From NCBI GenBank assembly GCA_900466605.1, contig UBMU01000012.1:310001-374000 (forward strand): a stretch of 64,000 nucleotides of DNA. Reading direction: 5' to 3'. This stretch comes from Hyphomicrobiales bacterium. GTDB taxonomy: Bacteria; Pseudomonadota; Alphaproteobacteria; Rhizobiales; Rhizobiaceae. Under the pieces are notes generated by a model. It had not been told where the DNA came from. It saw only the letters and a program-made list of their open reading frames with translations, and ran no database searches. Made by a program: the position numbers and the translations under genes. This document shows, one piece after another, positions 38,484 through 60,234 of the stretch. How positions within the stretch are numbered: the first letter of the stretch is position 1; the number at the start of each line of letters is the position of its first letter.

Positions 38484-39815
38484 CTAAAAGCCGCTTATCA
38501 GCTCAATCTTCGACCCGTCACGAAAGCGGTCGAACCGGAAGGGTGCAATGTCCACAATCGGGCTGCGTCCGATCACGATGTCAGCCATCAGCCGGCCGGC
38601 AGCAGGCCCAATGCCAAATCCGTGGCCGGAAAAGCCCGTAGCGACATAGAAGCCTGGGATGGTATCAATCGCACCGATTACTGGCACCGCGTCTGGCGTT
38701 ACATCGATCATCCCCGCCCAGCGCTGCGCAATTTCGGCTCGCTCAAAGACCGGAAACTCCTTCTTCAACCGGTCGAGGGCACCGTCAGCCATCGCCCTCG
38801 ACGGAACAGGATCGAGTGTTCTGACATATTCGAAGGGCGACGGTTCATCGAGCGCCCAGCGACGAGGCATCCTCGCGTCATCGATAAAGCGCCAACCTAG
38901 GCGAAGACGCAGCGAGCGCCATTCATGTCTGAGGGCGGGCAGAAACGCGGCCATGTGGCGGAAGGAATCGGGCACGATATCGACGATGTTTCGGGTCCCA
39001 TCGGCAATGGTGTAACCGCCGTCCTGCCTCTTGCGTGTGGCAAAGCCACGAGCCCAGATCGACTCCTCTGGTCCCCCTTCGAGCGGCTTTGTGCGCAAGA
39101 CGGAATTCATGACGCGCAGTTGCGGCAAGTTGAGATCATTGTTACCCATGAAGAGGCTTGACCAGGCACCACCTGCAAGGACGACAGCCTGGCAGCTGAT
39201 TTCGCCGCGTTCGGTCACCACGCCGCAAACCCTGCCGCCAGCAGTTTGCAGTCCGCGCACTGCGCATTCCGTCAAGACGTGGGCGCCTCGCTCACGTGCG
39301 GCTTCTGCAATCGCAGGGGTGGCAAGCTGTGGTTCGGCTCTGCAGTCATCGGGCGTATATAGCGCTCCGGCTATTTTCATCGTCGAGCCTGGAAATTTCG
39401 CATTGAATTCGGCAGTGCTGAGCATCCGGCTTTCGATGTCATAGCCGTGCAGGTTGCGGTTCCAGCGTTCGTGGTCGGCAAATTCTTGCTCGGTTGCACA
39501 GGTAAAAAGGATGCCGGCGCGCTTGAAACCCGTTTGCCGCCCCGTCCGGCGGTTCAGCTCAGCCCAGAGCTTCAACGATTGTGCCATCAGCGGCACTTCG
39601 CGCGGATCGCGTCGTGATATGCGAACCCAGCCCCAGTTGCGACTAGACTGTTCTCTTGCAATCCCACCCTTCTCGCAAAGCGCGACCGTCAACCCGTGTT
39701 CGGCAATCTCGAGCGCAGTCGACGCGCCGATGATCCCGCCTCCGATCACCACAACATCGACGCTGCGCGGTAGGTCTTCGTCACCGTGAACGGGCACGAC
39801 ATAAGGTCCAGGCAT
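38484..39815 (-). CDS. FAD-dependent oxidoreductase, DAO family
   Basis: 443 residues. The FAD dinucleotide-binding motif is VDVVVIGGGIIGASTALEIAEHGLTVALCEKG. Further DAO-family segments are EQSSRNWGWVR, AVVLAGGAWSSLF and the C-terminal GFYVATGFSGHGFGIGPAAGRLMADIV, which contacts the flavin. Relatives oxidise D-amino acids, sarcosine, glycine betaine derivatives or secondary amines. It is the last gene of the transporter operon, directly after a second DAO enzyme, so both probably attack the imported compound. The SSRNWGW motif is shared with a branch of deaminating amine/amino-acid oxidases. Confidence 0.85.
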   Translation of the reverse strand: MPGPYVVPVHGDEDLPRSVDVVVIGGGIIGASTALEIAEHGLTVALCEKGGIAREQSSRNWGWVRISRRDPREVPLMAQSLKLWAELNRRTGRQTGFKRAGILFTCATEQEFADHERWNRNLHGYDIESRMLSTAEFNAKFPGSTMKIAGALYTPDDCRAEPQLATPAIAEAARERGAHVLTECAVRGLQTAGGRVCGVVTERGEISCQAVVLAGGAWSSLFMGNNDLNLPQLRVMNSVLRTKPLEGGPEESIWARGFATRKRQDGGYTIADGTRNIVDIVPDSFRHMAAFLPALRHEWRSLRLRLGWRFIDDARMPRRWALDEPSPFEYVRTLDPVPSRAMADGALDRLKKEFPVFERAEIAQRWAGMIDVTPDAVPVIGAIDTIPGFYVATGFSGHGFGIGPAAGRLMADIVIGRSPIVDIAPFRFDRFRDGSKIELISGF

Positions 39816-39895
39816 GGGGCTCTCCGTAAGCGACGTTTGGGAGTGCCGGGCAGGTCGGGCTTCAAGCCGGCAAGGGGAAGGGTTGTCACAAGACG

Positions 39896-41185
39896 TCAGC
39901 TACGCCGATCCTGGAGCCGGTGCCAGGGATGCATGCGGTTAGCGACCTGAACGGCAACTGCGTGCATCCTGATTTTCTGCATGGCTGTGACGGGAAGGGG
40001 CATCTCGTCGTCTGATCGTCGTCCCGCCGCCCATCGGCCCATTTCCTGACCGAGCGACATCGACAGCGCCACGCCGCGTCCGGAATAGACACCACCGAAG
40101 ACAAGACCCGGACCAAGTCGATAAAGCCGCGGACGGCGATCCGGGACCACCGCAAAGGTCCCGTGCCAGTATTCAACAACTTTCGGCGGTCCGCCAAAGG
40201 CAGGAAATGCCTTTTCAAGGACCTGGGCCACCTTTGCGCGCCCCCGTTCAGCTTCGTCGAACCAAAGCGTATGTGTGGCGCCACTGACCAACCGGTTGTC
40301 GCAGTCATAATGGAAGTAACGAAGGTCGTTACGCATGTCGGAGACTGCGGGATCGCCGACCAGGATCTTCTCTCTCAGTTCGTCGCACAAAGGCTCAGTT
40401 GCCGCCTGAAAGACCTTGAACGGAATGAGTGTGCGCTTGAGGTCCGGCCAGATGTCTCCAGTCAATGCATTGGTGGCGAGCACGACCTCCGGAGCTGTGA
40501 CACTTCCCTGATCGGTGTGCACTCGCCAGCCCCTATCCAGTCGCTCAATGAGAAGGGCGCGCGAATTTTCGAAGATCGTAACGCCTTCCTGCTCCAACGC
40601 GTTGGCAAGGCCAATCGTCATGGCAAAAGGGTTGATGTGACCGGAGTTGTGGACCATCCAGCCTCCGAGGTAGGGGCTGCCAATTTTTGCGGTTGCGTCA
40701 CTGCTGGAGAGCCAGGACACTTCGGCTCCAATCGCCTTCCATTCTTCGTAGAACTGCCGCGCGCGCTTTAGTGTCTTTTCCGTGTGGGCAGGTTGGATCC
40801 AACCTTCCTGTACCTGATGAGCATTGATCCCGAAGCGTTGCATAAGACCAAAGGCAACGCCCGCAGATCCTGCGACCATGCGGTTGTAACGCTCGCCGAT
40901 GACCGGGCCAAAGGTGCTTTCGAACTCGGAAGGCGAGGCCTTTGAATGGTGGGAGATGACGAGGCCATTGTTGCGCCCGGAGGCTGCCGAACCGATCTCG
41001 TTGCCCTCGAGCATGATCACGTTGACGCCACTGTCCTTGGCGCCAAGTGCTGCTGCCATGCCTGTAAAACCACCACCGACGACAAGCACGTCCGTTTCAT
41101 GGTCGCCCAAAAGTCGGGGCGCAGCATCCCGCTTGAGCGCCGTCTTTCGCCACAGGTGTGGGGTGTGCCAGTCGACGTCAAACAT
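39896..41185 (-). CDS. FAD-dependent oxidoreductase, DAO/PuuB-like
   Basis: About 429 residues from ATG 41185, which overlaps the LivF stop by eight bases. It begins MFDVDWHTPHLWRKTAL and has the dinucleotide fold TDVLVVGGGFTGMAAALGAKDSGVNVIMLEGNEIGSAASGRNNG; the G-SGRN(N)G motif is typical of gamma-glutamylputrescine-oxidase-like enzymes. The C-terminus has GPGLVFGGVYSGRGVALSMSLGQEMGRW. It would oxidise an amine or amino acid after uptake, passing electrons to oxygen or the respiratory chain. Confidence 0.86.
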   Translation of the reverse strand: MFDVDWHTPHLWRKTALKRDAAPRLLGDHETDVLVVGGGFTGMAAALGAKDSGVNVIMLEGNEIGSAASGRNNGLVISHHSKASPSEFESTFGPVIGERYNRMVAGSAGVAFGLMQRFGINAHQVQEGWIQPAHTEKTLKRARQFYEEWKAIGAEVSWLSSSDATAKIGSPYLGGWMVHNSGHINPFAMTIGLANALEQEGVTIFENSRALLIERLDRGWRVHTDQGSVTAPEVVLATNALTGDIWPDLKRTLIPFKVFQAATEPLCDELREKILVGDPAVSDMRNDLRYFHYDCDNRLVSGATHTLWFDEAERGRAKVAQVLEKAFPAFGGPPKVVEYWHGTFAVVPDRRPRLYRLGPGLVFGGVYSGRGVALSMSLGQEMGRWAAGRRSDDEMPLPVTAMQKIRMHAVAVQVANRMHPWHRLQDRRS

Positions 41186-41927
41186 GGATTGTTTCCTCGG
41201 TGGCACCACCGAGATAGTGCTCAGTGATTGCCGAATGCTCTGCAAGTTCCTCAGTCGGGCCGTGCACCCGCACGCGGCCCGTGTTGAGAAGATAGGCGTA
41301 GTCGCCACATTCCAGTGCGAGCTGGACATTCTGTTCGACGAGCAGGATGGAGATACCTGACTTTGACAGGTCAAGAATGATGTGGAAGATCTGCTGAACG
41401 ATCTTGGGTGCTAGCCCAAGTGAAGGTTCGTCCAGCATCAAGAGCTTCGGTTCGGCCATAAGGGCGCGGCCGATGGCAAGCATCTGTTGCTGACCGCCCG
41501 ACATGCGGCTCGCCATGCCATTGCGTCGTTCCTTCAGAACCGGAAACAATTCGAAGACTTCGCTTCTAAGGGTCTCGAAGCTCTTTCCCGCACGACCGAT
41601 ATGGGCAGCGATGAGATTTTCCTCGACAGTGAGGCGCTGGAATATCTGGCGGCCCTCCGGGCAATGAGCAAGCCCCATACGGACCACGTGCTCCGGGCGT
41701 GCGCCTGTGATTTCTTTGCCATCATAGTGGATGGTACCGGCAGTTGGCCGTGCCACACCCGAAATCGAGTTCAAAAGCGTTGTCTTTCCGGCCCCGTTTG
41801 GTCCGAGGATGACGACGATCTCGCGCTCGTCGATCTCCAGATCGACGCCCTCAAGAACGCCGACGCGGCCGTATCCCGAGTTGAGCCCGGCGATCTTTAG
41901 CAGCGGTCCTGATGTCGTCGATGTCAT
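41178..41927 (-). CDS. livF: Branched-chain-amino-acid-type ABC ATPase (LivF)
   Basis: 249 residues. Walker A GPNGAGKTT, signature MSGGQQQMLAIGRALM, Walker B LLMLDEPSLGLAP and the H-loop-equivalent Q (ILLVEQNVQLAL) are intact and typical of LivF. Its start lies inside the end of livG (77-base overlap). It pairs with LivG to drive the LivHM channel. The Liv family transports many substrates besides branched-chain amino acids, including amides, urea and aromatic acids. Confidence 0.94.
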   Translation of the reverse strand: MTSTTSGPLLKIAGLNSGYGRVGVLEGVDLEIDEREIVVILGPNGAGKTTLLNSISGVARPTAGTIHYDGKEITGARPEHVVRMGLAHCPEGRQIFQRLTVEENLIAAHIGRAGKSFETLRSEVFELFPVLKERRNGMASRMSGGQQQMLAIGRALMAEPKLLMLDEPSLGLAPKIVQQIFHIILDLSKSGISILLVEQNVQLALECGDYAYLLNTGRVRVHGPTEELAEHSAITEHYLGGATEETIHV

Positions 41928-42681
41928 TGGCTGTTCCCAGGTAAGCGAGTTGAACGTCGGTGCTCGCCTGGACTTCGGCGGGCGTTCCTTGAAAGAGCAG
42001 TTTGCCGTGGTGCATCACGAGGATTCGATCGCAGAGCGACATGACGAGATCCATATCGTGCTCCACAATGATCATGATACGGTCGGGCGAACGCAGTTCT
42101 GCAAGCTTGGCCGTCAGTTCGGCCGTCTCGTGGTGATTGAGGCCCGCAGCTGGTTCGTCAAGCAGAAGCACTCGCGGATTGACCACCAGCGCGCGAGCAA
42201 TCTCCAGCATGCGCTGGCGGCCATAGGGCAGGCTTCCTGCCTCGGCATTGGCATATCCCTGCAGATTGAAGAAGGCTAGCAGTTCCATGCAGGCAGCCCG
42301 GCGGCGGGTCTCTCGGTCGGTGGCAAATGGCGGCCAGAGGATTTCCTTCCAGGCGCTTCCGACAGCTTGCGGATAGTAGCAAACCTCCAGATTTTCCAAA
42401 GCCGTCATCTGATCGAATAGACGGATGTTTTGGTAGGTTCGTGCGATGCCTGCGTTTGCGATCTGGTATTTCTTCAAACCACTCAGTTCGCGACTATCCA
42501 GGCTGATCGAGCCAGAGGATACCGTGTATGAACCGGCAGTCATATTGATCAGCGTCGATTTGCCGGCGCCATTTGGACCGATCACGCCATGGATTAACCC
42601 AGGTGCGAACTGTGTCGTGACATCATCGATTGCAACGTTGTGTCCATATTGCTTTCGAAGGTTTTGAAAAACGAGCGTCAT
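41851..42681 (-). CDS. livG: Branched-chain-amino-acid-type ABC ATPase (LivG)
   Basis: About 276 residues from ATG 42681 (MTLVFQNLRKQYG), overlapping the livM stop by four bases. Walker A is GPNGAGKST, signature LPYGRQRMLEIARALV, Walker B VLLLDEPAAGLNHHET and H-loop IMIIVEHDMDLVM. LPYGRQR in place of LSGGQ-type is normal for LivG. The C-terminal ~25 residues (RTAAKDRRAQLGIRPRRRS) extend beyond the family end and overlap livF in another frame, perhaps loss of an older stop. Confidence 0.93.
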   Translation of the reverse strand: MTLVFQNLRKQYGHNVAIDDVTTQFAPGLIHGVIGPNGAGKSTLINMTAGSYTVSSGSISLDSRELSGLKKYQIANAGIARTYQNIRLFDQMTALENLEVCYYPQAVGSAWKEILWPPFATDRETRRRAACMELLAFFNLQGYANAEAGSLPYGRQRMLEIARALVVNPRVLLLDEPAAGLNHHETAELTAKLAELRSPDRIMIIVEHDMDLVMSLCDRILVMHHGKLLFQGTPAEVQASTDVQLAYLGTANDIDDIRTAAKDRRAQLGIRPRRRS

Positions 42682-43673
42682 TTCCCGAACAGCCTCCGGA
42701 TGAGTTTGTCTGGTCCGAACGTGCGTGGCACGATGCCGGCCGGCCTGAGGATGATGAGGACGATCATCAACAAGCCGAGGAAGAGGATGCGCCATTCGGC
42801 GAATTCGCGCAGCACTTCTGGCAGAAGAATGAGTATGGCTGCACCGACGACGATCCCGAGGATGTTGCCGATACCGCCGATTACGATCATCAAAACGATG
42901 AGAACCGATTCCTGCAACGAGAAGCTTTCTGGACTGACGAAACGCTGCGAGGCAGCAAACATCACACCGGCAATTGCGCCAATCGTGGCCGAGGTGGCAA
43001 ACGCAGCCAGTTTTGCAACCGTGGTGTTGATGCCGATGCCCCGGGCAGCATCCTGATCCTCGCGAATGGCCGCCCATGCCTTGCCGAGAATTGAACGTTC
43101 CATCCGCCAGACAAGCGTGCCGATTATGATGACGGTGACGAGGAGAAGCCAGAAGATTTCTACTGGTCTCGCAAGCTCGATGCCCACAATTGACGCCTTG
43201 TCGAGGCGCGCAATTCCTTTCGGGCCACCAGTCAGCCAGTCGATGTTGTTGAGGATGATGCGGATGATCTCGCCGAATCCGAGCGTTACGATTGCGAGGT
43301 AGTCGCCGCGCAACTTGAGAACAGGAATTCCAAGCAGGATGCCCGCAAGCATTCCCGCGCAGGCGGCGATGAGGACTATCAGGAGAAACGGGAGATGAAG
43401 CCCCAGTTGCGGGCTGGCGAGGAGCCCGTAGGTGTAGGCGCCCACGGCGTAGAATGCGACAAAGCCGAGATCAAGGAGACCGGCATAGCCAATCACAATG
43501 TTGAGGCCCATGCCGAGTAGAATATAGATGAGAAGCCCGTTGACGACGCGTACGTAGTAGTTGGGGAGGAAGGGTGTTGCGACAATGAGGGCAACAGCCA
43601 GCAGAAGCATAAGCCATGGAAGGAGCCTGCCGCTGCCAGTCGATGCCTGGACTGAAGTATCGGCGGAGGACAT
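42678..43673 (-). CDS. livM: Branched-chain-amino-acid-type ABC permease (LivM)
   Basis: 331 residues, about nine helices. Family marks include LNIVIGYAGLLDLGFVAFYAVGAYTYGLL, LKLRGDYLAIVTLGFGEIIRIIL and the cytoplasmic loop RSILGKAWAAIREDQDAARGIGIN that contacts the ATPase. Overlaps livG by four bases and abuts livH. It forms the heterodimeric channel with LivH. Confidence 0.94.
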   Translation of the reverse strand: MSSADTSVQASTGSGRLLPWLMLLLAVALIVATPFLPNYYVRVVNGLLIYILLGMGLNIVIGYAGLLDLGFVAFYAVGAYTYGLLASPQLGLHLPFLLIVLIAACAGMLAGILLGIPVLKLRGDYLAIVTLGFGEIIRIILNNIDWLTGGPKGIARLDKASIVGIELARPVEIFWLLLVTVIIIGTLVWRMERSILGKAWAAIREDQDAARGIGINTTVAKLAAFATSATIGAIAGVMFAASQRFVSPESFSLQESVLIVLMIVIGGIGNILGIVVGAAILILLPEVLREFAEWRILFLGLLMIVLIILRPAGIVPRTFGPDKLIRRLFGK

Positions 43674-44623
43674 CAGAATTCCCTCTTGTAGACCATGCTC
43701 TCCTCCGAAACCGGCTCGCCGAGAATGCCGGCTGGCCGCACGAGAAGAACGAGAATGAGAATGATGAAGGCGAGCACGTCACGATATTCGGTGCCAAGCA
43801 TTCCGCCCGATAAGGCCGGAAGCAAGGCCGTGCCCGCGACCTCCACAAAGGCAAGGATGAACGCGCCGAGCATAGCGCCGGGGATTGAGCCAATACCACC
43901 GAGGATCGCCGCGGTGAAGGCTTTGAGGCCAACCACCGCGCCCATCGTTGGAGACATGATGCCGTAATAACTGGCATAAAGAATGCCGCCTGCCGCACCA
44001 AGCAAAGGTCCGGCGAAGAACACCAGCGAGATCGCAAGGTTGACGTTGATTCCAAGCAGCTGAGCTGTCGGTCGGCTCTCGGAAACAGCGCGCACGATGA
44101 TCCCTGCACGACTGCGGTTCACCAGGGTGTAAAGCGCAAACATCAGCACGAAGGCTGCAATCAAGATGCCGATCTGGACCGAGGTGATCGTTCCGCCAAA
44201 CACGTTGAAACGCGTTGTCGGAAAGAAGCTTGGAAAGCCGACCGGTTGAGGGCCGGCTACGATCTGGACGGCGGTGACCAGGGAGAGCGAGACACCAAGC
44301 GATGACAGCATGGGCGCGAGGCGATTTGAGCTGCGCAACGGCTTGTAGGCAACGCGTTCGATCCCGACGCCGATAAGTCCCACAATGATGACTGCCGCAA
44401 AGAAGGCAAGCGCCAAGAAGACGACACCCCCACCGCCGATGTCGCCGATAAGAAGCGACAATATCACGAACGCTGCATATGCCCCGAGCATGAACATCTC
44501 GCCGTGCGCGAAGTTGATCATGCGCAGGACGCCATAGACCATCGTGTAGCCAAGTGCGATCAGGGCGTAGATCGAACCGATCGTCAGGGCGTTGAAAGTT
44601 TGTTGGATGACTGTTCCAAGCAT
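43673..44623 (-). CDS. livH: Branched-chain-amino-acid-type ABC permease (LivH)
   Basis: About 316 residues from ATG 44623 (MLGTVIQQTFNALTIGSIYALIALGYTMVYGVLRMINFAHGEMFMLGAY), a textbook LivH start; the longer frame would add 29 non-family residues. The coupling loop is RAGIIVRAVSESRPTAQLLGINV. Partner of LivM in the membrane. Encoded directly downstream of the binding protein, with a hairpin in the gap. Confidence 0.94.
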   Translation of the reverse strand: MLGTVIQQTFNALTIGSIYALIALGYTMVYGVLRMINFAHGEMFMLGAYAAFVILSLLIGDIGGGGVVFLALAFFAAVIIVGLIGVGIERVAYKPLRSSNRLAPMLSSLGVSLSLVTAVQIVAGPQPVGFPSFFPTTRFNVFGGTITSVQIGILIAAFVLMFALYTLVNRSRAGIIVRAVSESRPTAQLLGINVNLAISLVFFAGPLLGAAGGILYASYYGIMSPTMGAVVGLKAFTAAILGGIGSIPGAMLGAFILAFVEVAGTALLPALSGGMLGTEYRDVLAFIILILVLLVRPAGILGEPVSEESMVYKREF

Positions 44624-44711
44624 TTTGGATCCTGTCCGCAAAGGCCTCAAAGGCGAGGATAGGATGCGCGGCTGATCGACTGAAATCAATCGACAGCCAC
44701 ACGACGGCAAA

Positions 44712-44730
44712 GGCGGCCTGGTTGGCCGCC
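44712..44730 (-). promoter_or_regulatory. Hairpin downstream of LivK-type gene
   Basis: Perfect 7-bp stem GGCGGCC / GGCCGCC with a 5-base loop, 15 bases after the binding-protein stop and before livH. It probably raises the binding-protein to permease ratio by protecting the upstream mRNA. Confidence 0.5.
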
Positions 44731-44744
44731 GACTGGCTCAGACG

Positions 44745-45854
44745 CTATTTTGAACCGGCGAGGACAAACTTGTCGCCTTCCACCTTGTAGAGGTAGGAGG
44801 GCGCGACCTTGAGCTCGCCAATATCGTCGAATTCGAGATGGCCGATTGCCGTATCAACCTTCACGTTATGAAGCGCTTCGTTCATGTCTTCACGTGTCAG
44901 GTCCTTGGCGTCCTTGAGGACCGCTTCGAGTATCTGGCCCTGAACGTAGCCGTAAATGGAGTAGGGGCCAGGATCTTGGCCGTATTTCTCCTTGTAAAGC
45001 TTCGCAAATTCGGCAATGGCGGGTGAGGCGTCGGTCGGCGGTGCCTGGATGGCTACCAGCGAGCCTTGGACATTCGCTTGGCCGGCCTGAGAGATGTAAT
45101 CAGGCGTGTAGCCGCCATCTGGTACCAGAAGTGTTGTCTTCAGGCCCTGCTCATGAAGCTGTTTGGCAAAGAGGGCAAGCTGCGGCATCACGGCGCCAAG
45201 ATAAATCACATCCGGCGTCTTCGATTTGATCTGGGCAAGCACGGCGGTGAAATCGACGTCTGTCGGTGCCACGGAAAGCGTATCTAGCACCTTGCCGCCG
45301 CCGTCGGTAAAATTCTTGCCGAAGATTTCTGAAATTCCCTGGCCGAATACCTGCTTGTCGTTGACGATGACGGCAGTCTTGGCATTCAGCTTCTGCAGTG
45401 CATACTCAGCCGGCAGGAGCGCGCCGGCAAAGTCGTTGGCGACCGGGCGAACCATGAACTTGTAGCCCTGTTGTGTCAGTGCCGGGTTCGAGCCGAAGGT
45501 CATGGTCGGAAGCGTGCAATCCTCGTAGATTGGCAGCGTGGACTGAGCAACGCCTGAGTTGAAATTGACGAGCCCGATCACGACGTCCTCATTGTCGCAG
45601 AACTTCTGCGCGACCAGCGTGCCCTGGCGCGGGTCGGCCTGATCGTCTTCCTGCTCGATCTTCACGGTTGTGCCGTTGGCACCACCCGCGGCATTCAGCT
45701 TATCGATGTAAAGCTTGAATCCATTGTGCCAGGTCGACCCGAAATAGGCCTGCGGGCCCGAGATGGGGCCTGCAAGTCCGATGGTGATGTCTTTGGCCGA
45801 AGCCGGTGCTGCGATGAATGCTGCGCCAATGGCCAGCGAGGCGATGAACTTCAT
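44745..45854 (-). CDS. Branched-chain-amino-acid-type ABC substrate-binding protein (LivK)
   Basis: 369 residues with a Sec signal (MKFIASLAIGAAFIAAPASAKD). The mature part is a Leu/Ile/Val-type binding protein: ITIGLAGPISGPQAYFGSTWHNGFKLYIDKLNAAGGANG, VVIGLVNFNSGVAQSTLPIYEDCTLPTMTFGSNPALTQQGYKFMVRPVANDF and VIYLGAVMPQLALFAKQL. First gene of the operon that continues through livHMGF and two DAO oxidases. A perfect AGTGTCGACACT palindrome about 97 bases upstream marks its control region. Ligand unknown. Confidence 0.93.
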   Translation of the reverse strand: MKFIASLAIGAAFIAAPASAKDITIGLAGPISGPQAYFGSTWHNGFKLYIDKLNAAGGANGTTVKIEQEDDQADPRQGTLVAQKFCDNEDVVIGLVNFNSGVAQSTLPIYEDCTLPTMTFGSNPALTQQGYKFMVRPVANDFAGALLPAEYALQKLNAKTAVIVNDKQVFGQGISEIFGKNFTDGGGKVLDTLSVAPTDVDFTAVLAQIKSKTPDVIYLGAVMPQLALFAKQLHEQGLKTTLLVPDGGYTPDYISQAGQANVQGSLVAIQAPPTDASPAIAEFAKLYKEKYGQDPGPYSIYGYVQGQILEAVLKDAKDLTREDMNEALHNVKVDTAIGHLEFDDIGELKVAPSYLYKVEGDKFVLAGSK

Positions 45855-45951: not shown

Positions 45952-45963
45952 AGTGTCGACACT
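45952..45963. promoter_or_regulatory. GntR operator candidate upstream of liv operon
   Basis: Perfect 12-bp palindrome AGTGTCGACACT in the gap between the gntR stop and the liv-operon start, about 97 bases before the binding-protein ATG. The same 12 bases occur in the E1-alpha/SDR divergent region at 53866-53877. Confidence 0.7.
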
Positions 45964-50557: not shown

Positions 50558-50597
50558 TGTCTCATTCCTTTTACTGCACATGCTTGATCTGAAAAAA

Positions 50598-51869: not shown

Positions 51870-51880
51870 GACGCTGCCCT

Positions 51881-52855
51881 CTACTTCAACGTCGCAAGCG
51901 CCGCCGCACGGATCTTTTCCGCATTGGGCAACATCGCGGTTTCCAATGGCTCGGAGTAGGGTATCGGCATGTCTGGTAGGGTAACGCGAGCAACAGGTGC
52001 GTCGAGTTCGTCGAAGGCATGATCCATGATGGTTGCCGATAGTTCCGCAGCATAGCCGCAAAAACGCCAGCCCTCGTTGACGACAACAGCATGATGGGTC
52101 TTGGCAATCGAGGCGACGATAGCACTGACATCAAGCGGCCGAAGCGAACGGAGATCGATCACCTCTGCAGACACGCCGTCGGTTGAAAGCAGGTCTGCCG
52201 CCTTTACAGCTTCGACAACCATCTTGGAGGTGGCGAAAATCGAGATGTCGCTGCCTTCGCGCATTGTCGCAGCTTTGCCGAGAGGGACGATGACGTCGCC
52301 GTCAGGCACTTCGCCGCGGGTGTTATAAAGAAGCTTGTGTTCGAGGAAGACGACAGGCTGATCGTCGCGGATTGCCGCTTTCAGCATCCCCTTTGCGTCG
52401 GCCGGCGTCGAAGGCGCGACAACTTTGATGCCCGGGATATGGGCGAGCATGGAATCGAGTGCCTTGGAGTGCTGGGCACCCGCACCCGCACCGCCGCCAC
52501 CCTGCGTTCGAAGTACGAAGGGCATCTTCACCTGGCCATCCCAGATGTAATTATAGATCGATGCCTGATTGACGAGCGCGTCGAGCGAAAGCGGAATGAA
52601 ATCTGCATACATGATCTCAAGGATCGGCCTGGTTCCCGTCATCGCAGCCGTAACGGCCATCGCCGTCATCGCCTGTTCCGAAATCGGTGTATCGCGAACC
52701 CGGCTCTCGCCAAACTCGTCCAGCAGACCCTTCGTCACCTTGAAGACGCCGCCATAGCGGCCGATGTCTTCCCCGAACAGGAACACCGACGGATCAGCTG
52801 TCATTTCCTCGCGCAGCGCCGCATTGAGGGCTTCGGCATATCGCATAAGGGCCAT
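51881..52855 (-). CDS. TPP-dependent dehydrogenase E1 beta subunit (AcoB type)
   Basis: About 324 residues from ATG 52855, whose GAGG site lies inside the end of the E1 alpha gene. Family segments: RYAEALNAALREEMTADPSVFLFGEDIGRYGGVFKVTKGL, DTPISEQAMTAMAVTAAM, FVLRTQGGGGAGAGAQHSKAL and EVIDLRSLRPLD. The conserved Glu and the transketolase C-domain are present. Pairs with E1 alpha as a heterotetramer that decarboxylates or cleaves a keto substrate using thiamine diphosphate. In this context an acyloin or diketone is more likely than pyruvate. Confidence 0.9.
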   Translation of the reverse strand: MALMRYAEALNAALREEMTADPSVFLFGEDIGRYGGVFKVTKGLLDEFGESRVRDTPISEQAMTAMAVTAAMTGTRPILEIMYADFIPLSLDALVNQASIYNYIWDGQVKMPFVLRTQGGGGAGAGAQHSKALDSMLAHIPGIKVVAPSTPADAKGMLKAAIRDDQPVVFLEHKLLYNTRGEVPDGDVIVPLGKAATMREGSDISIFATSKMVVEAVKAADLLSTDGVSAEVIDLRSLRPLDVSAIVASIAKTHHAVVVNEGWRFCGYAAELSATIMDHAFDELDAPVARVTLPDMPIPYSEPLETAMLPNAEKIRAAALATLK

Positions 52856-52857
52856 GT

Positions 52858-53832
52858 TCAGTGCGCCTCGCTGTAGGGATTGCATGCATTATCAACCGCA
52901 AAGGTCGGCATCGGATCAGACAGGGCCGCCTCGAATGCTGCTTCGACCTCGGCCTTTGCCGAAGCCTCGACCTCGCTGAGCCTCTCCTCGCTCACCGCTT
53001 GCATCAGCATGTTGCGGGATAGTGTCAAAGGATCGCGGTCCTTCCAGGCGGCGATATCCTCGGCCTTCTGGTAGCCACCCATATCCGAAGTGGAGAAGCC
53101 CTCCAGACGGTATGTCTTGCACTCGATCATAGCGGGGCCTTCGCCCCGGCGGGCGCGTTCAACCATGCCAGACACAGCACGGTAAACCGCAACCGCGTCA
53201 TTTCCGTCGACGATCTCTGAAGGCATATTGTAGCCGGCGGCCCGAACGGAGAGGTCTGCTACAGATGACTGAACCTCTGATGGAACGGTTAATCCGAACT
53301 GATTGTGTTCGAGAACAAAAACCACCGGAAGCTTCCAGAGCGCTGCCATGTTCATGGCTTCGTGACAGATGCCGGTTTGCGCGGCTCCGTCGCCGAAGAT
53401 GCACATGGCGACGTTGCTTTGCCCCATGATCTGCATCGAAAGCGCCATACCGGTTGCAGCGGGGATTCCTGCGCCGACGATGGCATTGCCCCCAATGACG
53501 CCCTTTTCAGCATCTGCTACCAGCATGTGCCCCGCCCGGCCGCCGCAGGCGCCGGTTGCGCGTCCGAAGATCTCGGCGATCACCGGCCGCATCGCCATTC
53601 CCTTGCCGATATAGACGGCGTGGCCGCGATGCGTTGTTGCAACCTTGTCGCCGGTTTCCAAAACGGCGGTTGCTGCGATCCCGACCGCCTCCTGCCCATC
53701 GCAGCGGTGGATCGGGCCACGTGTGCGCCCCTCCTTGTGTAGAGCGCCAAGCCCCTCTTCAAGATGACGGACCATGAGCATCTTCCGGTAGATTTCGAGA
53801 TGCTCTTCAACTGAGGGTGTGTTCTTCACCAT
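52858..53832 (-). CDS. TPP-dependent dehydrogenase E1 alpha subunit (AcoA type)
   Basis: About 324 residues from ATG 53832 preceded by GGAGG; the longer frame would run through the operator. The TPP-binding motif is IFGDGAAQTGICHEAMNMAALWKLPVVFVLEHNQ, and the phosphorylation-loop region is YRLEGFSTSDMGGYQ. HRGHAVYIGKGM and ACGGRAGHMLVADAEKGVIGGNAIVGAG are typical of acetoin/pyruvate E1 alpha. First gene of the seven-gene operon; the palindrome 53864-53879 is centred ~40 bases upstream. No E3 gene is seen in the island. Confidence 0.91.
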   Translation of the reverse strand: MVKNTPSVEEHLEIYRKMLMVRHLEEGLGALHKEGRTRGPIHRCDGQEAVGIAATAVLETGDKVATTHRGHAVYIGKGMAMRPVIAEIFGRATGACGGRAGHMLVADAEKGVIGGNAIVGAGIPAATGMALSMQIMGQSNVAMCIFGDGAAQTGICHEAMNMAALWKLPVVFVLEHNQFGLTVPSEVQSSVADLSVRAAGYNMPSEIVDGNDAVAVYRAVSGMVERARRGEGPAMIECKTYRLEGFSTSDMGGYQKAEDIAAWKDRDPLTLSRNMLMQAVSEERLSEVEASAKAEVEAAFEAALSDPMPTFAVDNACNPYSEAH

Positions 53833-53863: not shown

Positions 53864-53879
53864 AAAGTGTCGACACTTT
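53864..53879. promoter_or_regulatory. GntR operator candidate, perfect 16-bp palindrome
   Basis: AAAGTGTCGACACTTT between the divergent E1-alpha (start 53832) and SDR (start 53930) genes. It contains the 12-mer found upstream of the liv operon and could control both flanking operons at once. Confidence 0.75.
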
Positions 53880-53929: not shown

Positions 53930-54670
53930 ATGCGTCTGATGGATAAGGTTGCGATCGTGACCGGGGCAGCGGCAGGTATCGGAGCAGCGACCGCAAAGCT
54001 CTTTGGTCGCGAGGGAGCAAAAGTACTTGTCGTCGATCGCGACGGAGCGGCAGCGCAAAAAATTGCCGTCGAAGTCGGTGGCTATTCCAGCGCCGTCGAC
54101 GTTGCCGACGAGGCTGCCGTTGCCAAGATGGCGCTGGACGCCCGCCAGCGCTTCGGTCAAATCGACATCCTCGTCAACAATGCAGGTTACGGCATCAGAG
54201 GTTCAGTGGTCACGACGCGGGCGGATGACTGGGATGCGCTGATGTCGGTCAACGTCAAAGGTGTCTTCCTGTGCTCCAAGCACGTGATCCCGCTGATGAC
54301 AAATGGTGGTTCGATCGTCAACACGGCCTCCAATGTTGCCAATGTCGGCCTTGCTGACCGCGCCGCCTATGTCGCGTCAAAGGGTGCCATAGCGGCGCTG
54401 ACGCGCGCCATGGCACTCGATCACGCAGCCGACAAGATCCGCGTTAATGCGGTTGCGCCCGGGACCACCTGGTCGAGCTACTTCGACAAGATGCTTGCGA
54501 GCCATCCCGATCCAGATGGCTTTATCAAGGCCCTGAATGCCAGAGCACCGATGAACCGCATAGGCGAACCAGATGAGATCGCCCAGGCGATCCTTTGGCT
54601 TGCAAGCGACGCCTCTTCCTACGCGACGGGCTCCATTCTGACGGTCGACGGCGGCATGACAGCGTGGTGA
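53930..54670 (+). CDS. Short-chain dehydrogenase/reductase
   Basis: 246 residues with GGAGAGAG upstream. SDR motifs: VAIVTGAAAGIGAATAKLFGREGAKVLVVD, DILVNNAGYG, Ser in IVNTASNVANVG, YxxxK in AAYVASKGAIAALTRAMALDHA, and RVNAVAPGTTWSSYF. Classical, ~250 residues, C-terminal SILTVDGGMTAW. The only plus-strand gene in its half of the island besides the ProC-like one, divergent from E1 alpha across the shared operator and convergent with the cobalamin gene. Likely NAD-dependent oxidation of a hydroxy intermediate. Confidence 0.9.
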   Translation: MRLMDKVAIVTGAAAGIGAATAKLFGREGAKVLVVDRDGAAAQKIAVEVGGYSSAVDVADEAAVAKMALDARQRFGQIDILVNNAGYGIRGSVVTTRADDWDALMSVNVKGVFLCSKHVIPLMTNGGSIVNTASNVANVGLADRAAYVASKGAIAALTRAMALDHAADKIRVNAVAPGTTWSSYFDKMLASHPDPDGFIKALNARAPMNRIGEPDEIAQAILWLASDASSYATGSILTVDGGMTAW

Positions 54671-54682: not shown

Positions 54683-56422
54683 TCACTCTGACCCGATGCT
54701 GGCGCGCAGGGCCGCCAGCATCTCGTCAAGATCGGCACAGGGAAGACATCCGGTAGCGGCAATGTCGGATCGAACGTCGACTGGCAGACCGGAATTCGAA
54801 TCCGGCGGGATCTCGTTCAGGCGCCCGCCGATCAAAACCGGAAGATCAAGACCCTGCGCAGCCATGACCGCTTTGACAGACTTCGCATAGGAGAGGGCTA
54901 CCCCGTTATAGGTGCTGACGGCTATGACATTCGCACCCGTGTCCCTTGCCTTGGCAACCAGCGTCTCCGGATCAATGGCGACCCCTGCATCGATGATGTT
55001 GGCGCCAAGCCCTTCCAATGCCTGTTCGACCAGATACTTGCCATGCTCGTGGACATCGGTGGTACCGATACAGACGAGTGGCGGTTGGCGCGCGTTTAGA
55101 GGTCCTTGCTTGCCGACCCAATCGGCAGCCTTGTGATTGAGCTCGCGCGCCCATTCGGCATGAATAAGTGGCATTCTGCCGCGCGAGCTCTGGACCCCAG
55201 GGCCAAACAGCATCTCCATCCGCTTTGGCCCCATGCGGCGGATGGCGAGCATCAGCGCGGCGCAATCGTTGGTGTTCACACCGAGTTCTTCGAGCCCTCT
55301 TAAGACTGACGCAGCGAAACGCTGGCCGCCGTCGACGAGGATCTCCGCCATGGCTTCGATCTTTGGCCAGTCTAGAACCGGCTCATAGAAGGGCGCGTGG
55401 GATGCAAGGCGATGGGCAAAGCACTGCGCATCGATAATCTCGTCGATATCGGGGATACGCTGGTTTTCGGTCACCGGGACAGGATTGATCGCATGCCCGG
55501 CCGGCCAACGTCCGAGCGAGAGGATGTCAGCGAGAAGATAGCTTGCAAGACTTGCGTAATTGGCAGCTGGCGTGCCCTGGTAGGCAACAGTATTGCCGAA
55601 GATCATCGTACCAGGCGTGTCGCTGACGCGCACCAGCGCCGCATGGAAGGCTGCGCGCGACAAGGGATCACTGAAATGGTGCCCGTAGCAATGAGAGACG
55701 CGCGCGCCAATCAGGTGCTCGATGATGTGCTTCTCGATGATGACCATGCCAAGCGCACATGCCATGTCGACGAAAAGTCCGGCAAAACCGTCGTCGAGAT
55801 TTGAGTGGACGAGAATGGTTTCTTCCTGTGCAGCAATCAGCCCGAGTGCGGTTACGGTCGCCTCGGTGGTCGCGACGTCATCGTCCCAATAGGGAAGGCG
55901 GAACGTGAAATACTGACCGAGATTGCCAACGGCGGTGGCGCCAGCTGCAAGCGCCGCGCGCGTGTTTTCGACAGCACCAGGCAGACCTAGCATGAAATCG
56001 CCGAAATGGGCGGCCGCTGGCGCGGCATTCGTGATGCGGGCAAAATCCTCAGGTCCGCTCAGCACAATCCCAGTCCCGCGAGATGCCTTGGCGCGCATGC
56101 CTTCAGGATAACCCATCGACCAGTCGAGCGTGATGCCGAAGCGATCGACAGTGACGCCTGCTTTCGCCGATGTCGCGTGTACCGTGCGAATTGCTTCGAT
56201 CGTCCGATTAACGTCACGAAAGCCGATATGAGCGTGTTGCATCACCCGGCCCTTAGCCGCGCACTGCCGTTTCCATTCGGCCTCCGACGAGACACCGTTT
56301 TCAGAGAGAAACAGACAACTGCCGAGCTGCCAGCTGCGCTTCATGGCGCGTCCAGCACTCAGAAGCTCTGACCCCGGCTGCAGGCGCGGATCAATCAAGG
56401 CAGGCATCGTATCATCGGTCAT
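54683..56422 (-). CDS. Single-chain glutamate-mutase-like cobalamin-dependent mutase
   Basis: 579 residues. The C-terminal ~130 residues (from about 447) are a B12-binding domain with the base-off/His-on signature DxHxxG (DVHEHG, His about 458), the SxL-type serine segment AVSTYNGVALS and the third motif VLIGGRLNE. The N-terminal ~440 residues are a TIM-barrel-like region resembling the epsilon (large) subunit of methylaspartate (glutamate) mutase: VGNLGQYFTFRLPYWDDDVATTEATV, VHSNLDDGFAGLFVDMACALGMVIIEKHIIEHLIGARVSHCYGHHF and GTMIFGNTVAYQGTPAANYASL. Classical glutamate mutase uses two polypeptides (S and E); here they are fused E-S. It should rearrange a carbon skeleton via adenosylcobalamin. 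Confidence 0.8.
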   Translation of the reverse strand: MTDDTMPALIDPRLQPGSELLSAGRAMKRSWQLGSCLFLSENGVSSEAEWKRQCAAKGRVMQHAHIGFRDVNRTIEAIRTVHATSAKAGVTVDRFGITLDWSMGYPEGMRAKASRGTGIVLSGPEDFARITNAAPAAAHFGDFMLGLPGAVENTRAALAAGATAVGNLGQYFTFRLPYWDDDVATTEATVTALGLIAAQEETILVHSNLDDGFAGLFVDMACALGMVIIEKHIIEHLIGARVSHCYGHHFSDPLSRAAFHAALVRVSDTPGTMIFGNTVAYQGTPAANYASLASYLLADILSLGRWPAGHAINPVPVTENQRIPDIDEIIDAQCFAHRLASHAPFYEPVLDWPKIEAMAEILVDGGQRFAASVLRGLEELGVNTNDCAALMLAIRRMGPKRMEMLFGPGVQSSRGRMPLIHAEWARELNHKAADWVGKQGPLNARQPPLVCIGTTDVHEHGKYLVEQALEGLGANIIDAGVAIDPETLVAKARDTGANVIAVSTYNGVALSYAKSVKAVMAAQGLDLPVLIGGRLNEIPPDSNSGLPVDVRSDIAATGCLPCADLDEMLAALRASIGSE

Positions 56423-57215
56423 GGCTTATATCCGAAAGAAAACGCCGAAGCACGGCGGCAAACTGTTGCGGCCGTGCCAGGGGATGGAAATGAGCGCCAT
56501 CGAGCCGCGTCAACCTTGCGCCGGAAATGGCACTGGCGACACGTTCGGACAACTCAGGTGGTGTGAGGATGTCATCGTTGGCGACGATGACATGGACCGG
56601 CTTGGCAATGCGTGACAGATCGACGAGCCTGTCATGGTCGAGCAACATTCTCACACGTGCCGCAGCAACGCGAAGCGGAGCGAGCACATCACTTGCTCTC
56701 GCGACCGCCTTGGCAAGCTCTTCGGCATGGGCCTCGAGATAAGATGCCTCGTGACCAAAAACATGGGTCAGCCGCTGGTAGGCCTCGGTCAGGCCATTCT
56801 CCAGCATTTCAGCCCGGGCGATGAAAAGACTGCGAAAGCGTTCATCGGCCTCTGCCCAGGAACTGCTGATTGTGAAGCTGAGACCAGTTCCAGGGTGATC
56901 AATTGCCAATGTCTGGGCGATTGCACCACCTGTCGAATGACCGACAACGTGCACCATTTCTCCCAACAAGGCGGCAATCCCTGCTGTATCAGCAGCGATC
57001 TGCCCGATGGAGTAGGCGCCGCCGGGCCGATCGCTGCGCCCGGCTCCGCGATGGTCAACAACCAAAAGCCGATATGCGCCGACGAGTTCATGGACCACGC
57101 CATTCCAGAACCTACCATCCCCGCCGAGCCCGGGGATCAAAAGGACAACCGGCCCGCGGTCCCCAAATGTCTCATAGTGGATGCGGCAGCCATCGCTTGC
57201 TACAAACTGCGCCAT
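56412..57215 (-). CDS. Alpha/beta hydrolase
   Basis: 267 residues. Oxyanion region VVLLIPGLGGDGRFWNGV; nucleophile Ser94 in HVVGHSTGGAIAQ; Asp in IVANDDILTPPE; His near the end in LDGAHFHPLARP. It resembles 3-oxoadipate-enol-lactonase-like esterases. Start codon overlaps the upstream gene stop by one base and its end overlaps the mutase start by 11, so translation is coupled. It could open a lactone, cleave an ester or a C-C bond in the pathway. Confidence 0.87.
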   Translation of the reverse strand: MAQFVASDGCRIHYETFGDRGPVVLLIPGLGGDGRFWNGVVHELVGAYRLLVVDHRGAGRSDRPGGAYSIGQIAADTAGIAALLGEMVHVVGHSTGGAIAQTLAIDHPGTGLSFTISSSWAEADERFRSLFIARAEMLENGLTEAYQRLTHVFGHEASYLEAHAEELAKAVARASDVLAPLRVAAARVRMLLDHDRLVDLSRIAKPVHVIVANDDILTPPELSERVASAISGARLTRLDGAHFHPLARPQQFAAVLRRFLSDISHDR

Positions 57216-58006
57216 CAGCCTGCTTGCCCCGTATCGATGACCCTTAAAACGGCGGCCGCCAGACTGAGCCCCGTCACGGCTGAGGTCTTCGGATTGTCAA
57301 AAGACGGCTTATTGATAAAGCGGAAGGATGCCAATCCAACGGAGCTTTCCACCTCGAATTCGTGGATATTGCTATCGATGGAAGGATCGGCGACGACGGT
57401 CATGGTAACAGGTGCCGGAGCGACGATTAGTTGAGCGGTGTAGGCGGCATTCAGGTTCTTCGGGTAAAGGAGCGCAGCCTCCGACGGAGTACCCTCAAAC
57501 AGCGTAACCGGCTGATTGATATCTGACAGTTCAAGGGCTGCCAGCTCCTCCTTCCACGCCGCGACCGGTTTGGTCAGTGTGTATCTCACCCGGGTATCTG
57601 AAAGCCCAGCGACGGTGGCCAAGTAGTCGAGGCCGCCAATCGCACCCGTCGGGATTATCAGGTCGCCCCGCTTCAGCGCTCGAGCTTCGGCGACGGCGCC
57701 CGCTGTGGTCAAGTCGGCGAGGGCGCCAACCGAGGCAACAACGACAGTCATTCCAGCTCGCAGCAGGGCCGGCACGTAGGCCGCCACGCTTTCCTGGCCT
57801 GCAGCCTCGACAACCACCTGGGGCTGAAAGGCTACGAGTTCATCAACGTGATGCACGACACCCATTCCATCGGGGACGGTCGCCTGCGACCCCTCGCGCA
57901 GCAACACGATCCATTTGACAGACCGGCCCTTAAGGGCATCGACGGTTTGCCGCGCAAGAGTGCCGAACCCGATCAGTCCAATGGTGGCTGGGGTCATGGC
58001 GGTCAT
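57215..58006 (-). CDS. Aspartate-dehydrogenase-like protein (NadX/DUF108)
   Basis: 263 residues. Rossmann motif ATIGLIGFGTLARQTVDAL, catalytic-region segments PTGAIGGLDYLA, LLYPKNLNAAYTAQLIV and the C-terminal FRFINKPSFDNPKTSAVTGLSLAAAVLR; FEVES and NPKTS are signatures of L-aspartate dehydrogenases. Family size is ~265. It would oxidatively deaminate an amino acid or reductively aminate an oxo-acid with NAD(P). In the island it sits between a cupin and an esterase, so a beta-amino or aspartate-like intermediate is suggested; NAD synthesis is less likely without nadA/nadC. Confidence 0.83.
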   Translation of the reverse strand: MTAMTPATIGLIGFGTLARQTVDALKGRSVKWIVLLREGSQATVPDGMGVVHHVDELVAFQPQVVVEAAGQESVAAYVPALLRAGMTVVVASVGALADLTTAGAVAEARALKRGDLIIPTGAIGGLDYLATVAGLSDTRVRYTLTKPVAAWKEELAALELSDINQPVTLFEGTPSEAALLYPKNLNAAYTAQLIVAPAPVTMTVVADPSIDSNIHEFEVESSVGLASFRFINKPSFDNPKTSAVTGLSLAAAVLRVIDTGQAG

Positions 58007-58009: not shown

Positions 58010-58546
58010 TCAGCTGCCCTGATTTACCGGGTCAAACTTGTCCTCGAGATCCTTGCCAAATACAGTCTGGCGCTCGATTTCGAGAACATTATCGGGCCGC
58101 GGAAAATTGGACGGGACCCGGTCGCCAGCCTTTCGTGGCCTGCCGATCTGTCGGAAAAAGTCCTCCAGTCCGTTCGGCACGATCAACCAAACCCAACGCA
58201 GCCGTGTTTCACCGTCATTGATGAACATGTGGCGCATGTTCTTCGGCAGGAAGATCACGCTGTCGGGGCCAATCGGAAACTCCGTGCCATCGACGACGGC
58301 GCGACCTTGACCTTCGATGATGTAAACTGCTTCCTCGTTGCGGTCATGGGTATGCTCACGCACGTAACCACCAGGCGCAACCGACTGCGTGCCAAGTGCG
58401 AAGGGGTGTTCCATAGGAACGATATGTGGGGCAAGTGCCACATCGACATGCCCGTTTGCCGGAACCGGTTGCCAATAGCTTTCCCGGGAAGCCGGCCCGG
58501 AAATATGGGCGCCTTCTGGCGGTGCGCGACCGATCTGCTCTTCCAT
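58010..58546 (-). CDS. Cupin-domain protein
   Basis: About 178 residues from ATG 58546 after GGAGGAAG. Cupin motif 1: APGGYVREHTHDRNEEAVYIIEGQG with HxH and Glu metal ligands; motif 2: GPDSVIFLPKNMRHMFIN with the third His. A conserved RVDWLIV-type strand follows. Metal-binding cupins include oxygenases, isomerases and storage-type proteins. Three bases separate it from the NadX-like gene; it lies downstream of the flavoprotein gene in the same operon. No specific reaction can be assigned. Confidence 0.83.
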   Translation of the reverse strand: MEEQIGRAPPEGAHISGPASRESYWQPVPANGHVDVALAPHIVPMEHPFALGTQSVAPGGYVREHTHDRNEEAVYIIEGQGRAVVDGTEFPIGPDSVIFLPKNMRHMFINDGETRLRWVWLIVPNGLEDFFRQIGRPRKAGDRVPSNFPRPDNVLEIERQTVFGKDLEDKFDPVNQGS

Positions 58547-58626
58547 TTCTTCCTCCAAATTTTTGCCAGCAGCGCGGCTGGCCCATGATTGTAAAACCCG
58601 GACAGATGGCCAGCGGTCGAAAAGCT

Positions 58627-60234
58627 TTACTGGTTCTGCCGAAGGATGGTCTCGGCCGAGATGTAGCCCCAGGTCAGGTTGGGCCCAAGGGTCGTTCCTG
58701 CACCAACGGCGCGCGTTCCGATCGGATTTGCCATTGCAAGGCCTGCTGCGTAGAGGCCGGCGATAATCGAGCCGTCTTCGCGAAGAACCTGGCCAAGGTC
58801 GTTGGTGCGGGCGCCTCCCTTGGTGCCAATAATCGAGCGGTTGACGGAAAGACCGACATAAGGCGGCTTGTTGATCGGCTGCAGGCGTACCAAGCCACCG
58901 TCCTTCTTGCGCTCCCAGGCAGGCTCTCCACGATGGAAGTCTTCGTCTTTCCCCTTGGCGCAGAAGGCGTTCCATCGGTCGATCGATGCCTTTAGCTCAG
59001 CGGCGGGCAAGCCAAGCTTTGCTGCAAGCTCCTCGATCGTATCCGCCTTCTTGACCCAGTCGCGCTCGTAGGATGCATACCAGCGAAACACCACTGATGA
59101 TTTGAGGAAGCGATGGTCGCCGACGAGATAGCAGGGAAGGTGTAAAGGCGATCCGTCGGGATTGCGCGCATCGAGGGCTTCGCCGATGTTGAAATGGGCT
59201 TCGCTCACGAAACGCTTTGCAAGCCGATTGACGACGATCGAATGCGGTTCGTAAAGGAAGTTAATCGGCAAGCCATAAGGCTTCCCCTCGTAGCGCGTTG
59301 GAAGGCAGACATAAACATTTGCCTGATCCATGCGGTCGAGATGGGCGCCAACCGAGGCTGCAAGTTTCTGGCCGTCGCCTTCGTTGCTGGAGGGTGTCCC
59401 AATACGGTCAAGCGGGCCAGGGAAGTGCTTCTCGCGCATTTCCTTGTTCCACTCGAAACCTCCCGATGCAATCACGACCCCGCGGCGCGCGCCGATGATT
59501 TCACGCCGGCCGTCGAACTCAACCTCGACGCCCCTGACCCGACCCGCATCGTCCTGGCGAAGACCTATGGCGCGTGTTGACAGGCGAAAGGTCACGCCAG
59601 CGTCAAGGCAGCCCTTGACCAGACCCGTCATCAGCGCCGTCCCCTGGGCGCCAGAATTGGTAAGCCAGCGCCAAAGGAGCTTCGGCCACATTTTCAGGCC
59701 GGCCTGAATAGGGCGATGGTAGAGGTCGAGGTTGACATTTTCTTGATAGGTAAAAACGTGAGGAAGCGTAGAGCGTCGCATCCGCTTGGCGTATTTCCCA
59801 ACGATCCTACGGCTGAGAGGCATCGGCGAGACCATGCGACCATACTTCTTGCCACCTGGTGCCTCGACGTAAGGGTCGGGCTCGTCGATAAGCCTGAAGT
59901 CAATTGGGGTATTGTCAGAGACGAATTTCAGCATTGCCGGAGCATTTTCAACAAAGGCGCGATGGCGCGCTCCTTCGGTTTCTGCCCAATCTGCAGGCTG
60001 GACGGCGCGCAGATAATCGAGCGCATCCTGCTTGCTGTCTGAAACGCCAGCGGTTGCAGCGATATGGTTGGCCGGAATCCAAACACCCGAACCGGACATC
60101 GCCGAAGTGCCGCCAAGCCACTCGCTCTTTTCCAGAGCGAGAACTTTGAGACCGCCCTTGGCCGCTCGCAGCGCCGCCGAGCAAGCTGCCGATCCCGTGC
60201 CGATGACGACAACGTCAAACTCAGTCATTCCCAT
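58627..60234 (-). CDS. FAD-dependent KstD/fumarate-reductase-like flavoprotein
   Basis: 535 residues. The FAD motif is FDVVVIGTGSAACSAALRAAKGGLKVLALEKSEWLGGTSAMSGSGVWIP, where GGTSAMSG is the hallmark of the fumarate-reductase/3-ketosteroid-dehydrogenase family. Further marks: GVVIASGGFEWNKEMREKHFPG, and C-terminal GLYAAGLAMANPIGTRAVGAGTTLGPNLTWGYISAETIL. It would introduce or reduce a C=C bond next to a carbonyl. It is first in a five-gene operon; a TGTCGACA-type site lies about 58 bases upstream. Confidence 0.87.
   Translation of the reverse strand: MGMTEFDVVVIGTGSAACSAALRAAKGGLKVLALEKSEWLGGTSAMSGSGVWIPANHIAATAGVSDSKQDALDYLRAVQPADWAETEGARHRAFVENAPAMLKFVSDNTPIDFRLIDEPDPYVEAPGGKKYGRMVSPMPLSRRIVGKYAKRMRRSTLPHVFTYQENVNLDLYHRPIQAGLKMWPKLLWRWLTNSGAQGTALMTGLVKGCLDAGVTFRLSTRAIGLRQDDAGRVRGVEVEFDGRREIIGARRGVVIASGGFEWNKEMREKHFPGPLDRIGTPSSNEGDGQKLAASVGAHLDRMDQANVYVCLPTRYEGKPYGLPINFLYEPHSIVVNRLAKRFVSEAHFNIGEALDARNPDGSPLHLPCYLVGDHRFLKSSVVFRWYASYERDWVKKADTIEELAAKLGLPAAELKASIDRWNAFCAKGKDEDFHRGEPAWERKKDGGLVRLQPINKPPYVGLSVNRSIIGTKGGARTNDLGQVLREDGSIIAGLYAAGLAMANPIGTRAVGAGTTLGPNLTWGYISAETILRQNQ

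Follow-up and report, generated by a model that had tools for sequence, protein, structure and literature searches.

Does one regulator govern the catabolic-looking gene island at positions 38484 to 60234 of a 64-kb stretch of a Hyphomicrobiales bacterium genome (contig UBMU01000012.1, positions 310,001 to 374,000; hereafter, the window), and do the enzymes encoded there serve one route? A sequence-only reading of the window had proposed that the product of gntR (45999-46766) controls about 20 of these genes over ~22 kb as one pathway through shared palindromes. The first part of this proposal is supported by the conservation of the sites: sequence comparison makes it highly probable that the island is one local regulon, controlled by GntR via four promoter regions. 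The second part is plausible, given that the genes travel together. The regulator is of a known kind; the novelty lies in the enzyme set under GntR.

Palindromic sites and their conservation

The core sites had been placed upstream of the liv importer operon, in the gap between gntR and a ProC-like reductase gene, in the gap between the E1-alpha and SDR2 dehydrogenase genes and upstream of the gene for a KstD-like FAD dehydrogenase, and all four were found there. The regulator gene and the putative operators are as follows.

45999..46766, minus strand: gntR, GntR regulator of the FCD/FadR type (255 aa, start codon ATG at 46766)
45952..45963, no strand: putative operator AGTGTCGACACT in the livK promoter
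46796..46803, no strand: putative operator core TGTCGACA in the gntR/proC divergent gap
53864..53879, no strand: putative operator AAAGTGTCGACACTTT in the E1-alpha/SDR2 divergent gap, between TTGC and TATT elements
60292..60303, no strand: putative operator GCTGTCGACACT in the KstD promoter
60282..60289, minus strand: putative second operator copy AGTAGACA, 12 bp downstream of the main KstD site

The octamer TGTCGACA occurs seven times in the window, whereas 100 dinucleotide shuffles averaged 1.2 copies and never exceeded 4; four of the seven start at 45954, 46796, 53868 and 60294. The remaining copies lie at 2340 (within a 416-aa open reading frame, ORF), 36694 (within an rbsB-like ORF) and 27930. 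The copy at 27930-27937 (TTGTCGACAA) is outside ORFs of at least 80 aa, with neighbouring ORF edges at 27744 and 28282. Two perfect palindromes had also been reported, and exact AGTGTCGACACT is indeed present at 45952-45963 and 53866-53877, 7.9 kb apart and both in the island; these are its only exact copies in the 6.59-Mb assembly, where ~0.4 would be expected under equal base use. The longer AAAGTGTCGACACTTT at 53864-53879 is a perfect 16-bp palindrome, the 60292 site (GCTGTCGACACT) has two mismatches to AGTGTCGACACT, and the 46796 site retains the 8-bp core alone. This last site had been described as weak; a counterpart is present in 26/26 orthologous gntR promoters.

When three mismatches to AGTGTCGACACT were allowed, a scan of the window returned 25 matches versus 21.3 by chance, which is not above background; the signal is therefore carried by near-perfect sites only. 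Taken alone, that scan would suit the view that the palindromes cluster by chance. The excess of seven copies over 1.2 expected speaks against such clustering, and the intergenic enrichment, core constraint and promoter conservation across loci described below refute it, leaving it next to impossible. Across the organism's own genome, AGTGTMKACACT with at most one mismatch was found at 19 places versus 18 for the reversed control; as there is no wider regulon above background, we take the system to be a local switch. Of the 17 non-island AGTGTMKACACT-like places, 15 were looked at and 14 lie within open frames of at least 100 aa, a location that is weak evidence at this G+C content.

For comparison across genomes, the family of the island's cobalamin-binding (B12) protein served as bait in a collection in which each species is represented by a single genome. 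A relative is encoded in 120 stretches, from which the 80 best loci were taken. The B12 gene is thus present in every locus by construction and, because it was the bait, its constancy is no evidence. Orthologs of gntR (~69-85 % identity) were found in 28/80 loci. Exact TGTCGACA was counted in the 26 loci whose gntR ortholog reaches 69 % identity or more: the 23,748 intergenic bases contain 84 copies and the 370,467 bases inside matched genes 16, where intergenic means uncovered by a tblastn match (three queries, DAO2, E2 and cupin, were trimmed at approximate starts, not start codons). Of the 256 palindromic octamers, the one ranked second reaches 10 intergenic copies in these loci.

The sequence-only reading had staked its proposal on conservation of the sites upstream of orthologous operons. 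Within 250 bp upstream of the gene, TGTMKACA was found at KstD in 29/29, E1-alpha in 25/26 (absent in L078), gntR in 26/26 and livK in 28/28 loci, or 108/109 promoters when the four sets are pooled; 63 control palindromes built to the same pattern reached at most 6, 12, 10 and 8, respectively. This count was made at higher thresholds, which excluded KstD of L078 (63 %, no site), E1-alpha of L046 (64 %, inverted, no site), E1-alpha at 63-64 % in L084, L089 and L094, and gntR of L061 (exact site) and of L065 (TGTCCACA); L061 and L065 sit in a lower GntR identity bin, with 5 and 3 sites. The exact core is present at KstD in 26/30, E1-alpha in 25/26, gntR in 21/26 and livK in 24/28. Promoters without it carry TGTAGACA or TGTCTACA, the exceptions being KstD and E1-alpha of L078 and gntR of L065, and nearly all changes seen from the exact core stay within TGTMKACA. 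Among promoters thinned to less than 90 % alike (n=23, 18, 24 and 19 for livK, E1-alpha, KstD and gntR, window included), identity is 98-100 % in the 8-bp core, against 71, 71, 60 and 56 % in the respective flanks.

The exact core was also found at proC (22/36), SDR2 (18/36) and cupin (16/49), which are placed so that they share, or could share, these gaps. It was found within 250 bp upstream of none of the genes for the 3HCDH-type dehydrogenase (of 26), SDR1 (30), alpha/beta hydrolase (42), aspartate-dehydrogenase-like protein (25), E1-beta (30) and LivM (23), and once each upstream of the operon-internal unk284, livH and B12 genes. Where gene order changes, the sites remain at the transcript start: in Mesorhizobium, KstD is inverted and divergent from cupin; in L047, E1/E2 are missing from the stretch; and a short Shinella cluster consists of KstD-B12-unk284-ProC-gntR-liv-DAO2.

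Pairing with the regulator and probable mode of control

GntR combines an N-terminal winged helix-turn-helix (wHTH; PF00392, 60.4 bits, cut-off 27) with a C-terminal FCD domain (PF07729, 84.8 bits, cut-off 24.3). PMC4494728 gives the FadR-subfamily operator form as NyGTM-N0-1-KACNy, with two nucleotides between GT and AC in a minority of groups; TGTMKACA fits this form. In wHTH plus FCD architecture and 2-nt GT-AC spacing, the island system resembles the FadR (FCD) groups GntR, HpxS, HypR, MdcY, PrpR and UxuR covered there, from which it differs in its target genes. The same source also describes weaker boxes, which lie 7-12 nt from the centre of the palindrome, whereas the clear extra copy at KstD and those at six more distant loci are near-complete palindromes in 12-bp steps.

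All 26 loci with gntR of at least 69 % identity have 3-5 sites each. In six mostly Rhodobacteraceae loci with a 35-38 % identical GntR, TGTCGACA lies upstream of its own gene in 6/6 (the distance rule finds sites in 4/6; reading upstream of gntR gives 6/6), and a further copy, matched at 6 or more of the 8 positions, lies 12 bp downstream in 6/6. In five loci in which the neighbouring GntR is at most 32 % identical, TGTMKACA sites were found in 0/5, and three such proteins that were aligned differ in the recognition helix (SRIPLREAIR-like vs SRTPIREALNR). Among loci without gntR in the stretch, sites were found in 3/35 (L060, L067 and L074), all three cut by a contig end. The TGTMKACA sites are putative GntR binding sites, and the core at 46796..46803 suggests that gntR is autoregulated.

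The arrangement of the promoters bears on how GntR would act. With positions counted from the first core base and the window included, 23/26 E1-alpha promoters carry TTG[CA] at -8 and all 26 carry TATT[AT]A at +14; the operator would thus lie between putative -35 and -10 elements, as expected of a repressor. KstD promoters carry GT[AG]GACA at +13 in 30/30 and TATA at +38 in 28/30, and the second KstD copy (AGTAGACA in the window) shares bases with the putative -35; livK promoters carry TTGAC at +13 and TTC[CG][AT]T at +36 (29/29 each). All of these are candidate elements, named from their conservation. The mean TGTMKACA match at +12 is 6.97/8 at KstD, a clear copy, and 6.0 at E1-alpha, a partial copy; the downstream copy at gntR is weak (best mean match 4.89 at +13), and no clear copy was found near +12 at livK (best 5.07 at +11), the background median being ~2.6.

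We suggest that a GntR dimer would occupy the AGTGTMKACACT-like operators of the four promoter regions and release them on binding the imported substrate or an early intermediate. Since the operator falls between the putative -35 and -10 at E1-alpha, and beside or over the putative -35 at KstD and livK, GntR most likely represses, and repression by exclusion of RNA polymerase is the most economical reading. An unlikely alternative is that GntR activates at the same sites, or activates livK and KstD while repressing E1-alpha and gntR. The livK and KstD sites, which sit just upstream of the putative -35, would suit activation; the E1-alpha operator, between TTG[CA] and TATT in 23/26 promoters, suits a repressor, and the overlap of the second KstD copy with the putative -35 also tells against activation.

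Several observations weigh against a GntR repressor acting through these sites. The operator centre is ~45 bp (an estimate) upstream of the inferred livK and KstD starts, a position also used by activators. Where GntR is 53-57 % identical, in Bosea and relatives, TGTMKACA was found upstream of cluster genes in 0/6 loci, and the two of these regulators that were aligned are near-identical in the recognition helix. In L078 most of the set is present, but KstD and E1-alpha lack a site and gntR was not detected; L065, in which GntR falls just below 69 %, has TGTCCACA at gntR, outside the consensus. The loci are related, and the counts are not independent events. The six site-less loci would suit the view that the palindromes serve another regulator common to these promoters and that the local GntR binds elsewhere. 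However, all loci with a close gntR have sites, the gntR promoter itself has one in 26/26, TGTCGACA likewise precedes the gene of the 35-38 % identical GntR in 6/6, and the motif has the FadR-subfamily form given in PMC4494728; we consider a different regulator very unlikely.

Control of the island by GntR would be of practical use: four conserved promoter regions with one regulator are a ready reporter for finding the inducer and hence the substrate. Three side observations concern other regulators of this kind. The site-less clusters with a 53-57 % identical GntR are L090, L091, L092, L096, L098 and L099. Upstream of gntR in L080, L084, L103, L109, L120 and L121, TGTCGACA is accompanied by imperfect copies in 12-bp steps, resembling an operator array that adjoins a distant GntR and a ProC-like gene. 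Upstream of a different GntR in L083, L085, L086 and L111, an A/T-rich TTGGATAC-like element, noted by eye, replaces TGTCGACA.

Genes, transcripts and the question of a pathway

The estimate of about 20 genes over ~22 kb agrees with the 22 counted from 38484 to 60234 using Pfam and NCBIfam. Besides gntR, they are as follows.

38484..39815, minus strand: DAO1, FAD-dependent amino/imino-acid oxidoreductase-like (PF01266, 253.7 bits)
39896..41374, minus strand: DAO2, FAD oxidoreductase that in NCBIfam most resembles L-pipecolate oxidase (243 bits against a cut-off of 600); the gene probably starts further downstream than the listed ORF
41178..45854, minus strand: livFGMHK, branched-chain-amino-acid-type ABC importer, five genes (Pfam, NCBIfam)
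46875..47633, plus strand: ProC-like reductase (PF03807 and PF14748; NCBIfam ProC models below cut-off)
47630..48445, minus strand: SDR1 (Pfam)
48442..49365, minus strand: 3HCDH-type dehydrogenase, carnitine-dehydrogenase-like below cut-offs (Pfam, NCBIfam)
49378..50232, minus strand: unk284, 284-aa protein with no significant Pfam family and a predicted McbB Pictet-Spenglerase fold
50234..50581, minus strand: NIPSNAP protein (PF07978, 94 bits)
50598..52061, minus strand: E2 with lipoyl, E3-binding and alpha/beta-hydrolase parts, acetoin-dehydrogenase E2-like (321 bits vs a cut-off of 307); the real start is probably near 51880
51881..52885, minus strand: E1-beta (Pfam, NCBIfam)
52858..53832, minus strand: E1-alpha (Pfam, NCBIfam)
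53930..54670, plus strand: SDR2, divergent from E1-alpha (Pfam, NCBIfam)
54683..56422, minus strand: single-chain cobalamin-dependent mutase-like protein, 579 aa (barrel part ~1-440; B12 domain with DVHEHG at 456-461)
56412..57215, minus strand: alpha/beta hydrolase (Pfam)
57215..58006, minus strand: aspartate-dehydrogenase-like (PF01958 and PF03447; PDB L-aspartate dehydrogenase, E 5.5e-25)
58010..58600 (58600 approximate), minus strand: cupin (PF07883; the listed ORF, 58010-58975, runs into KstD)
58627..60234, minus strand: KstD-like FAD dehydrogenase (PF00890, 193.5 bits; NCBIfam 354 bits against a cut-off of 788)

Strand, spacing and gene order suggest six transcripts: livKHMGF-DAO2-DAO1; gntR alone; the ProC-like gene alone; E1-alpha-E1-beta-E2-NIPSNAP-unk284-3HCDH-SDR1; SDR2 alone; and KstD-cupin-AspDH-hydrolase-B12. 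Every transcript group begins at one of the four palindromes, two of which sit in divergent gaps and would serve the groups on both sides. A full-length ortholog with more than 80 % identity was found in 2/37 genomes of the genus, own included, among 61 near genomes searched; the island is therefore accessory. Relatives also occur on plasmids of Neorhizobium and Shinella, and the gene set is found in many rhizobia and partly in other Alphaproteobacteria.

The enzyme set had been said to match no nameable pathway, and the Pfam and NCBIfam resemblances likewise give no known one. Resemblances to pipecolate oxidase, carnitine dehydrogenase, 4-oxocyclohexanecarboxylate dehydrogenase, pyridoxal dehydrogenase and aspartate dehydrogenase are below NCBIfam cut-offs; among the matches listed, cut-offs are passed only by the model for acetoin E2, one for an E1-beta subfamily and a generic one for SDRs. 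As in acetoin dehydrogenase, the E2, with its C-terminal alpha/beta hydrolase, passes the acetoin E2 model; unlike in that system, E1-alpha, E1-beta and E2 are present in only part of the related clusters. No paper about this cluster was evident by title among the open-licence literature matches listed for the gene set, the operator, kin of the 284-aa protein and a related mutase.

The island probably serves to break down an amino-acid-like compound or a cyclic amine, by a route that would run from import through C-N oxidation and ring or imine chemistry to a B12-dependent skeleton rearrangement, with a 2-oxoacid/acetoin-type dehydrogenase supplying acyl-CoA to central metabolism as the last step. 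Partial sets raise another view, that two or more unrelated pathways share one regulator: Shinella retains KstD, B12, unk284, the ProC-like gene, gntR, liv and DAO2, while Ancylobacter-type loci retain liv, cupin, SDR2, AspDH, NIPSNAP, B12 and the hydrolase. Parts of the set nevertheless recur together in varied arrangements, and we hold separate pathways to be unlikely.

The cobalamin protein and the 284-aa protein

The family of the 579-aa B12 protein comprises 1419 relatives among 7999 candidates scored. The protein has a predicted barrel fold and a DxHxxG B12 domain, as in glutamate mutase. That adenosylcobalamin enzyme consists of GlmE and GlmS, whereas the island protein is one chain with 10 % identity. 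Its barrel half has no significant Pfam family, no solved structure is of a close relative, and PF06368 (Met_asp_mut_E) is neither among its matches up to E 10 nor present in its own genome. When the B12 family was compared by hhalign with a single GlmE of another alphaproteobacterium, no relation was found and no alignment usable for placing the substrate-binding arginines was obtained. In the pyridoxal phosphate (PLP)-dependent aminomutases (OraE/KamE), a lysine stands 11 residues after the B12-ligand histidine. In the island protein the corresponding residue, 469, is leucine and nearly invariant in 21 aligned sequences; because the PLP lysine is absent, we rejected an ornithine/lysine aminomutase. 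Rfam returned no match on the window at the gathering score, hence no cobalamin riboswitch at that threshold, and 20 neighbours of the B12 gene in L080, L076, L081, L090, L093 and L088 gave no common theme.

McbB is the Pictet-Spenglerase of the marinacarboline pathway. The 284-aa protein is predicted to adopt its two-domain fold; it differs from McbB/KslB in having 14 % identity, no sequence-level PDB match to either and a catabolic-looking neighbourhood, and the likeness is one of predicted fold. Together, these proteins invite a bolder proposal, which we consider distinctly unlikely: an undescribed aerobic route in which a Pictet-Spenglerase-fold enzyme would open a cyclic secondary amine (alkaloid or imino acid) and a new single-chain adenosylcobalamin mutase would rearrange the product, under one tandem-operator GntR switch. 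If the GntR ligand were found, both the B12 mutase-like and the Pictet-Spenglerase-fold families would become assignable.

A B12 protein with 49 % identity is encoded with a GntR and a ProC-like protein on a conjugative Phyllobacterium plasmid (L128, 12120-15728), where the neighbours are proline-racemase-family, FAD oxidoreductase and dapA-like genes.

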